A stretch of 64,000 nt of DNA from a virus. The stretch is from positions 1 to 64,000 of IMG/VR virus record IMGVR_UViG_3300027734_002590, one strand, 5' to 3'. Below, piece after piece: positions 51,358 to 60,432 of the stretch. A program made the position numbers and the translations under genes. The stretch's first letter is position 1. Each line of letters starts with the position of its first letter. The notes under the pieces are model-generated. The model had not been told where the DNA came from. It made no database searches and saw only the letters and a list, made by a program, of their open reading frames with translations.

Positions 51358-51993
51358 TTCTTTTCCTTTACAATTAACAAACAATAAAAACGGTAAGATA
51401 AACAGCAAGCGAATAGCTGGACAATATGCAACTGTCAAGCGATCCAGCGATTAACCTTCACTTACAACTATCAACAAACAGAGAACCTAATATTGCCGGG
51501 TGACAATGGACAGAGCTTTCGCTGATTGGTCCCGGAGCACTAAGTTACGGAGGCTATCAAGCCAATTGTTCAGTAAAAGATTTCAAGTCTTTAACTGTTG
51601 TGCTACTCCTCATCTCCGTCTACCTTACCGGAAAACCGAGCAAGCTCGATTTTCAAAACCTTATAGGTGCTCTCTGTGGCGCTTGAATCCGCGGTAGCCC
51701 AACTCTTCATGGCCGGTCCTTGTACATGGTCGACATTGACAAGTATTTCGGTGTTCCATTGTAGCTACTCAGAAAGCACGTATAAAGTGTCTAGCTACTC
51801 ACACCACATGAGCCCTAGACTGAGTTGTTACCCTGTCCACACGTTTTAGTCTTCTGGAAGGACTGTAGTTGTCCACCTAATGCGTTCCCGCCACTCCACC
51901 ACAGAGTACGGATGGTCATAGCACTACATACCCAGCACTCTTTATGGTGACTGCCCCACCCTCCTTCAGTAACGGGCAGGAGTGCCCGGGTTA
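51358..51993 (-). ncRNA. 636-nt structured non-coding RNA candidate (GOLLD-like?)
   Basis: No convincing gene in 636 nt, unlike the rest of the window, and GC is higher than around it. Minus-strand structures: stem CGGGCA-CTCC-TGCCCG (51974-51990 region); AAAATCGAG-CTTG-CTCGGTTTT (51632-51653), paired fully only with a G.U on the minus strand; CCGGG...CCCGG (51496-51535) enclosing AGC-GAAA-GCT; and GCG-GGAA-CGC, both GNRA loops only on the minus strand. GOLLD RNAs are giant phage RNAs often near or containing tRNAs; identity here is inference. Confidence 0.6.
51547..51619 (-). other. tRNA-sized domain inside the structured RNA
   Basis: 73 nt closed by ACGGAG/CTCCGT on the minus strand. The middle is an anticodon-like arm AAAGA-CTTGAAA-TCTTT (same loop as the phage tRNA-Ser(TGA)), followed by GGC-TTGATA-GCC. 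The T loop is not canonical and CCA is absent, so it is a tRNA-like fold rather than a tRNA. Confidence 0.5.
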
Positions 51994-52878
51994 TTACAAG
52001 TATGTTCCGTCTTTTAAGAACTGAACATAATCTTCTATTCCTTCGCTAACTGTTCTACATAGTGTAACGTCAAAACCTGATTTTGTCAATGCCGTTGTGT
52101 CTGCTTTGGTATCTATTTGATACTGTTTGGACAAATCACTTGGCATATCGATGTAATCAAAATAAACTTCTTGGTCGACATGTTTTGCCAATTCTCTAGC
52201 AACACGTTCGAAACTCTCACTTCGGCCTGTGCCCAAATCGTAAGTACCCGGTTTAAAGTCTTCAATAAAATGCCAACAAGCACGACACACATCTTCAACA
52301 TAGATAAAATCTCTATAGTATTGATCGCTATCTTTAAAGATCTTGATGCTACCTGTTTCTTGTATTTGGTTATACCAATTTAGCATGGTAGATGCCATTC
52401 GACCTTTATGATATTCATTAGGACCATATACGTTAAAGAAACGTAGTACCGCTACAGAATTATCTAATTCGTTTTCGCTCATTTGTTTGCTAAACGCATA
52501 TTGGTTTAGCGGGCCGTTTCCGTTACCATACACAGCCGCAGAGCTTGCAAACACAAACGGAATCTGAACTCTCCGTGCAAAGTTAGCCCATTGGCGTGTG
52601 CTTAGTACATTGGTCTTGTAAACGCTTGCCCAGTCATTAGCCAACGTGTTACTGTTAGCACCTAGGTGAATGATACCTTGTATACTACCAGGACTAAATG
52701 CCTCTACTATTTCCATTTCGTTAGTAGATATGATCCCACAACTTTTACCAACTAGGTTCTTATATTGTTCTGGGTGTGGCATATCATCGACAGCAAGAAT
52801 GTCTGTAATCCCAATGCTGTTGAGATGGCCTACCATTGCGCTACCAATAAAACCACCTGCTCCTGTAACAACTATCAT
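51994..52878 (-). CDS. NAD-dependent sugar epimerase, HldD/RfaD-like
   Basis: 294 residues, short-chain dehydrogenase fold: GAGGFIGS at 6-13, SSAAVYG, YAFSK (catalytic Tyr and Lys), LRFFNVYGPNEYHKGRMAS, which resembles ADP-heptose epimerase HldD. May make or alter a heptose-type sugar, possibly with the cytidylyltransferase-like gene at 8.5 kb (inference). Confidence 0.85.
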   Translation of the reverse strand: MIVVTGAGGFIGSAMVGHLNSIGITDILAVDDMPHPEQYKNLVGKSCGIISTNEMEIVEAFSPGSIQGIIHLGANSNTLANDWASVYKTNVLSTRQWANFARRVQIPFVFASSAAVYGNGNGPLNQYAFSKQMSENELDNSVAVLRFFNVYGPNEYHKGRMASTMLNWYNQIQETGSIKIFKDSDQYYRDFIYVEDVCRACWHFIEDFKPGTYDLGTGRSESFERVARELAKHVDQEVYFDYIDMPSDLSKQYQIDTKADTTALTKSGFDVTLCRTVSEGIEDYVQFLKDGTYL

Positions 52879-60204: not shown

Positions 60205-60432
60205 TTAAACTACTTTCTTAAGATACTCTGTACCTACCTTACCTTCTTGAATTTCAAGCAATGCAGTTACATTTGGATGCAAATGCTCAAACTTCAAACT
60301 TTCTTTGTTACGTCGACTAATCTCACGTGAACGAACCGCGGCCATCAATACTAAATCATATCGATTGCCACCTGCAAGCTCAACACATTTATCGGTGTCG
60401 ATTTCCGAACTACGACTGATACCTTTTTTCAT
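60205..60432 (-). CDS. rpoZ: RNA polymerase omega subunit-like protein
   Basis: 75 residues. GGNRYDLVLMAAVRSREIS and VTALLEIQEGKV match the omega fold core (GNRFDLVLVAARRAR...ALREIEEG). Host omega binds beta' and helps assembly; a phage copy could enter host RNA polymerase and shift promoter choice or ppGpp response. Lies between tRNA-Phe and tRNA-Lys, probably on the same transcript. Confidence 0.85.
   Translation of the reverse strand: MKKGISRSSEIDTDKCVELAGGNRYDLVLMAAVRSREISRRNKESLKFEHLHPNVTALLEIQEGKVGTEYLKKVV

Follow-up and report, generated by a model that had tools for sequence, protein, structure and literature searches.

A gene-free gap in a phage genome holds three structured RNAs, one of which accompanies the gene for a predicted coiled-coil protein

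Results

The locus lies in what we call the window, the whole stretch of viral DNA analysed here (64,000 nt, positions 1 to 64,000 of IMG/VR record IMGVR_UViG_3300027734_002590), and consists of a gap between an NAD-epimerase gene and the gene of a protein that we refer to as P192 (Table 1). An earlier, sequence-only reading of this DNA had found no credible gene in the gap, and this held: the longest ORF fully within it is 65 aa (plus strand), and among the matches listed a fully open forward frame occurs in 0 of 115 homologues of RNA A, 1 of 93 of RNA B and 8 of 43 of RNA C (short), the three elements described below. The lengths of A and B homologues scatter across all residues modulo three, and a hidden protein gene in the gap is ruled out because the homologues keep no conserved open frame. 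Also borne out were the high GC content of the gap (46.4% versus 39.6% in the window) and its tRNA-rich setting, with 30 tRNA genes in the window, the closest ~2 kb from the gap, and with the relatives' modules directly adjoining tRNAs.

Single-sequence folding gave −201 kcal/mol for the minus strand of the gap (z −1.8, 1 of 20 shuffles being equally good) and z +0.06 for the plus strand. This bias toward the minus strand is real and small; since it is modest, the case for RNA had to rest on comparison of homologues, which is convincing where folding alone is not.

Table 1. Features of the locus. Models R1 and R2 were built including the window copies, and covariance-model E-values are rough.
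Feature	Position	Strand	Basis or remark
P192 gene	50779..51357	-	192 aa; all-helical coiled coil predicted; constant neighbour of B
Purine-rich ribosome-binding site of P192 gene, AAAGGAAAAG	51360..51369	-	sequence
Gap	51358..51993		flanked by NAD-epimerase gene and P192 gene (start 51357)
RNA B (~273 nt)	~51385..51657	-	covariance model R2, 176 bits, E 1e-52
Second heptad track of B	51418..51431	-	UUGCAUA UUGUCCA
First heptad track of B	51461..51481	-	CUGUUUG UUGAUAG UUGUAAG
-10-like box of B, TATAAG	51660..51665	-	sequence; overlaps 3' end of C
RNA C (~128 nt)	51657..51784	-	covariance model R1, 131.8 bits, E 1.6e-30, at 51784-51655
RNA A (~209 nt)	51784..51992	-	starts just past epimerase stop codon; profile match 51992-51777, E 5e-48
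NAD-epimerase gene	52878..51994	-	flanks gap
Omega (RpoZ/Rpb6 family) match	60235..60369	-	PF01192, E 3e-9; within the window's tRNA array

Comparison with relatives was carried out using P192 as bait, which yielded 71 viral contigs with a P192 relative. Searching the gap against these contigs revealed two differently placed blocks, A (the first ~215 nt) and B (the last ~270 nt), and the middle block of the gap is a third element, C. Scanning of viral contigs by DNA pattern for the A and B cores added further relatives, giving at least 144 distinct sequences of A, 112 of B and 46 of C over at least 293 loci; the contigs overlap, those with B are not fully independent, and these counts overstate the number of independent lineages. 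On the minus strand of the window the order is A-C-B-P192. In most relatives B lies upstream of P192 and A right behind the P192 stop codon, and an omega-subunit gene (rpoZ-like; PF01192, 1e-10 and 3e-8 in relatives) often stands between B and P192. Elsewhere C occurs alone between tRNAs and A alone after tRNAs.

Covariation was scored by a G-test statistic with average-product correction against structure-free alignments simulated on each tree (60 simulations). At E≤0.05, ten pairs covary in A, two in B and two in C, with many more canonical pairs just under the cut-off. Compensatory changes were thus found in all three RNAs, which upholds the earlier proposal of structured RNA on the minus strand. 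Because A, C and B are placed separately in relatives, the gap is not the single giant RNA that had been suggested; it comprises three distinct structured minus-strand RNAs. In two contigs modules were seen twice, namely B with P192 in L037 (604-876 and 3133-3405) and A in L045 (4575-4792 and 6708-6925).

RNA A opens at its 5' end with an H-type pseudoknot, in which CGGGC pairs with GCCCG and the loop CUCCU pairs with AGGAG, followed by further helices; its conserved core reads GGACAGGGUA-AC-AACUCAGUCUAGGGC...GUAGCUAGACACU. The covarying pairs include the pseudoknot positions 14-33 and 15-32 (E=0 against the phylogenetic null). One of the ten A pairs, in the core at columns 184-192 of alignment A1, shows strong AG/GA covariation, which is non-Watson-Crick and likely marks a conserved non-canonical pair. 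Among the matches listed, A lies behind P192 (110) or a tRNA (mostly ≤60 nt away), and the next element after it is a tRNA or C.

RNA C is closed by an 8-bp terminal helix, GCUUUCUG/CAGAGAGC. Among the matches listed it is preceded by A or a tRNA and followed by a tRNA, with spacers mostly of 2-4 nt, and a T arm resembling that of tRNA (a bulged 5-bp stem with a UUCRANY loop) is present in 16 of 43 distinct homologues. Such arms, for example GUUUGGUUCGAUUCCAAC and GUCGGGUUCGAUUCCCGC, have a stem with a one-base bulge and with compensatory changes, and sit directly 5' of the terminal-helix strand AGAGAGC. The window copy belongs to another subtype with a shortened arm, in which the full T arm is absent, and ARAGORN and Rfam call it neither tRNA nor tmRNA. 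Like tmRNA and tRNA-like structures, C combines an 8-bp terminal helix with a T arm (in those 16 homologues) and a long arm replacing the D and anticodon arms; unlike them, it has no ORF, no CCA and no ARAGORN or Rfam match. We propose that C may be tRNA-like by descent, the T arm being reduced to a remnant in the window copy. A and C lie 2-8 nt from tRNAs or stop codons, which suggests that they would be separate RNAs cut from tRNA-array transcripts by tRNA processing. Both are only loosely linked to P192. A tmRNA gene with a tag peptide was called by ARAGORN at L061:5243-5688 and at L049:5522-5966.

RNA B comprises a 5' hairpin (GAAAAUCGAGC/GCUCGGUUUUC), a long-range closing helix (about 51630-51594 with 51415-51391), inner helices and a 3' U-run. 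RNAalifold analysis of 40 sequences gave 43 pairs, with double compensatory changes in 36 of them. The segment that separates the inner helices from the closing helix carries YUGY motifs at an exact spacing of 7 nt. In 93 distinct B sequences among the matches listed, YTGY recurred at lag 7 in 365 cases, compared with 7.6 expected from mononucleotide shuffles, and at lags 14 and 21 in 172 and 96 cases. A period of 7 nt is not divisible by three, which shows that the heptads are not coding. The window copy has weaker heptads than most, with tracks of three and two units, one of which is UUGA. Among the matches listed, B is preceded by tRNAs, and TATAAT was found within 45 nt upstream in 38 of 58 distinct sequences, with another TATA in 5 of 58.

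The pairing of B with P192 was checked by three routes, none of which started from both, as a guard against circularity. When B was sought by DNA pattern only, all 64 distinct copies with enough flank lay within 900 nt of P192 among the matches listed. A five-heptad TTGYNNN pattern returned at least 120 stretches, seven of which match the B profile or model; among the matches listed all seven adjoin a P192 gene (hmmsearch 1e-49 to 1e-64), four of them with P192 downstream of B and three with it upstream. The motif by itself does not identify B, as most of the five-heptad stretches are heptad repeats of unrelated kinds. Finally, a search for P192 across 84,980 genomes of bacteria and archaea gave one relative, in a metagenome-assembled bin, where P192 is followed immediately by B (R2, 84 bits, E 1e-25) and, next, by a tRNA. 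B therefore accompanies P192 almost everywhere that flanks could be checked, even in very distant cultured phages.

Homologues of P192 occur in cultured phages, among them the Caulobacter phages CcrColossus and CcrPW and Brevundimonas phages. All seven cultured Dolichocephalovirinae examined have a gap of 285-315 nt right behind the P192 homologue; in CcrColossus it occupies 201298-201583 of the record, behind gp272. Each of these gaps has a long closing helix and a row of 5-6 TGY heptads, which none of 5000 mononucleotide shuffles per gap reproduced. The B covariance model reported CcrColossus (E 2e-5) and CcrPW (E 2e-4) in a 131-kb search; the five Brevundimonas gaps were not reported by it, and the case for them consists of position, closing helix and heptads. 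In the CcrColossus genome paper, Rfam analysis gave no functional RNA besides tRNAs (PMC3556154).

The Vibrio phages Vp_R1 and SJSY21 carry a P192 homologue (E 2e-16) followed by a closed structure of ~215 nt (L426:42454-42672 and L429:2022-2236), whose closing helix shows a compensatory change from AACUGGUAC/GUACCAGUU to GACUGGUAC/GUACCAGUC. Here TGY recurs every 8 nt in a run of four, in contrast to the period of 7 elsewhere, and the B profile found no match in Vp_R1, so that the evidence for a relative of B is suggestive only. In PG07 the longest period-8 run is three, and the B model gave only E 0.2.

P192 itself matches nothing in Pfam or PHROG at E≤0.001. Its AlphaFold2 model is a helical coiled coil (pLDDT 88, pTM 0.67), a type of fold that matches many unrelated ones, and comparison with the PDB gave no confident fold match, none that points to a function, and no trustworthy relative by sequence. 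The best PDB fold, 3kdq, a Corynebacterium protein whose function is not known (Z 10.9, rmsd 5.2, 142 aligned), was rejected as lying in the chance range for helical models. Viral fold relatives include CcrColossus gp272, proteins of Vibrio and Erwinia phages and of the giant viruses Catovirus and Yasminevirus; the giant-virus matches, in Catovirus CTV1 and Yasminevirus, have E-values of 2e-5 and 6e-5. P192 lacks a recognisable RNA-binding domain, and its invariant basic residues (R6, K7, R54, R65, K89, R90, K116 and K160) would suit binding to nucleic acid.

Comparison of A, B and C with Rfam 15 (4227 families) gave no match even at E≤10, in keeping with the earlier suggestion of a possible new class, and we regard all three as previously uncatalogued as judged against Rfam 15 and the open-access literature. 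RNase P, 6S, 5S and an HDV-like ribozyme were likewise rejected as identities for A or B by the lack of any Rfam match. A blastn search for homologues of A, C or B in named phages found none, and one search matched tRNA genes only. A survey from 2017 reportedly described 224 candidate RNAs.

The GOLLD model RF02032 (gathering threshold 150 bits) matched nothing in the window, in the gap at E≤10 or in the rest of the 101.7-kb record, yet it scored 185-229 bits on GOLLD RNAs in 6 of 36 sister records, where they form elements of their own within similar tRNA arrays. True GOLLD RNAs with an internal tRNA lie in arrays of the A/B/C kind at L021:123-583, L029:828-1290, L004:2155-2619 and L181:3805-4269, and in L021 C comes directly after GOLLD.

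Discussion

We lean toward the explanation that the gap encodes the three RNAs A, C and B beside P192, and that B and P192 form a phage ribonucleoprotein. The two are associated at the loci, and from this we infer binding and a shared function, B probably being one half of an RNA-protein machine with P192. B would be transcribed from its own -10-type promoter, and several P192 protomers may line up along the single-stranded YUGY motifs 7 nt apart to give the ribonucleoprotein. Whether B acts in this way as a free non-coding RNA, a multi-site platform for P192, we put at roughly even odds. The likeliest roles would be control of P192 by a sponge or scaffold, or a combined effect of B and P192 on transcription or RNA stability in the host. 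Control by a multi-site sponge and an effect on transcription are the guesses that we favour; an omega-subunit gene often shares the operon.

Regularly spaced copies of a short motif are familiar from CsrB/RsmZ sponge RNAs, which present GGA in hairpin loops, and from TRAP-binding leaders with their (G/U)AG repeats. B resembles both in having many short motif copies that could load several protomers, and differs in that its motif is YUGY every 7 nt in single-stranded RNA and that P192, the putative ligand, is unrelated in sequence.

An unlikely alternative is that B is a cis-acting 5' leader (a riboswitch, attenuator or autoregulatory site) of the rpoZ-like or P192 gene and not a free RNA. Among the matches listed B mostly runs up to the ribosome-binding site of rpoZ (103) or P192 (88), and its own -10-like box and the U-run behind its closing helix would fit such a leader; in most contigs B could still be one. 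However, B comes after P192 in L390, L398, L332, L433 and the Dolichocephalovirinae, and the next element behind B is a terminator in L398 and a tRNA in L433, or else unrelated genes. The intrinsic terminator stands just behind B in L398, L420 and L424, and is strong in L398 and its sisters. Since P192 lies downstream of B in most cases and upstream in others, B appears to be more than a P192 leader; it is not always upstream of one fixed gene, as a riboswitch or leader would be, and the gene behind it varies while its partner P192 is constant.

We also consider it unlikely that a factor from the host (Hfq, Rho or a translation protein, for instance) binds the heptads and that P192 is linked to them for another reason. 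Short pyrimidine-rich motifs at periodic spacing are typical of multimeric RNA-binding proteins, and the wide differences among the hosts can be counted for this reading, but across phage groups P192 is the sole constant gene beside the heptads.

Very improbable is the idea that A-C-B in this genome is one fused RNA of ~630 nt acting as a unit. The three abut here without a gap, and the order A-C-B-P192 or A-B-P192 recurs in L071, L170 and L003. Against this, A and B lie on opposite sides of P192 in most relatives, C stands between tRNAs with no adjacent A in several arrays (e.g. L083, L172 and L262), A follows tRNAs without C, and none of the covarying pairs tested joins two modules.

That the gap is a divergent GOLLD or ROOL cage RNA, as its phage origin, tRNA-rich setting and pseudoknots and the presence of GOLLD in sister phages might suggest, we regard as next to excluded, since neither model matches in the Rfam scan down to E≤10 and GOLLD is a separate element in the sisters; the sequence-only proposal of GOLLD membership, and its suggested search with GOLLD and other large-RNA models, thus came to nothing on the gap. 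Like A, B and C, GOLLD is a large, structured RNA that phages carry within or close to tRNA arrays, but it is one RNA, often longer than 800 nt with a conserved 3' domain, in contrast to separable RNAs of ~209, ~128 and ~273 nt, and it assembles RNA-only cages (PMC12286853) whereas B has a protein gene as its neighbour. ROOL is similarly phage-borne, pseudoknotted and found near tRNA islands (PMC12286853), whereas the gap RNAs, which have no Rfam match, are smaller and modular, and B carries a heptad array.

Taken at even chances, B and P192 may constitute a widespread and undescribed ribonucleoprotein, with a coiled-coil protein on an RNA track of 7-nt repeats, ranging from metagenomic freshwater phages to jumbo phages of Caulobacter and Brevundimonas and perhaps to phages of Vibrio, and A and C would be two more new classes in the same tRNA arrays. 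The analysis adds three structured RNA classes missing from Rfam 15 and draws attention to a phage protein accompanied by an RNA of its own. Because Caulobacter crescentus is a laboratory bacterium and its phage CcrColossus is in culture, the prediction lends itself to immediate testing. These results indicate that phage tRNA arrays carry several classes of large RNA beyond GOLLD and ROOL.
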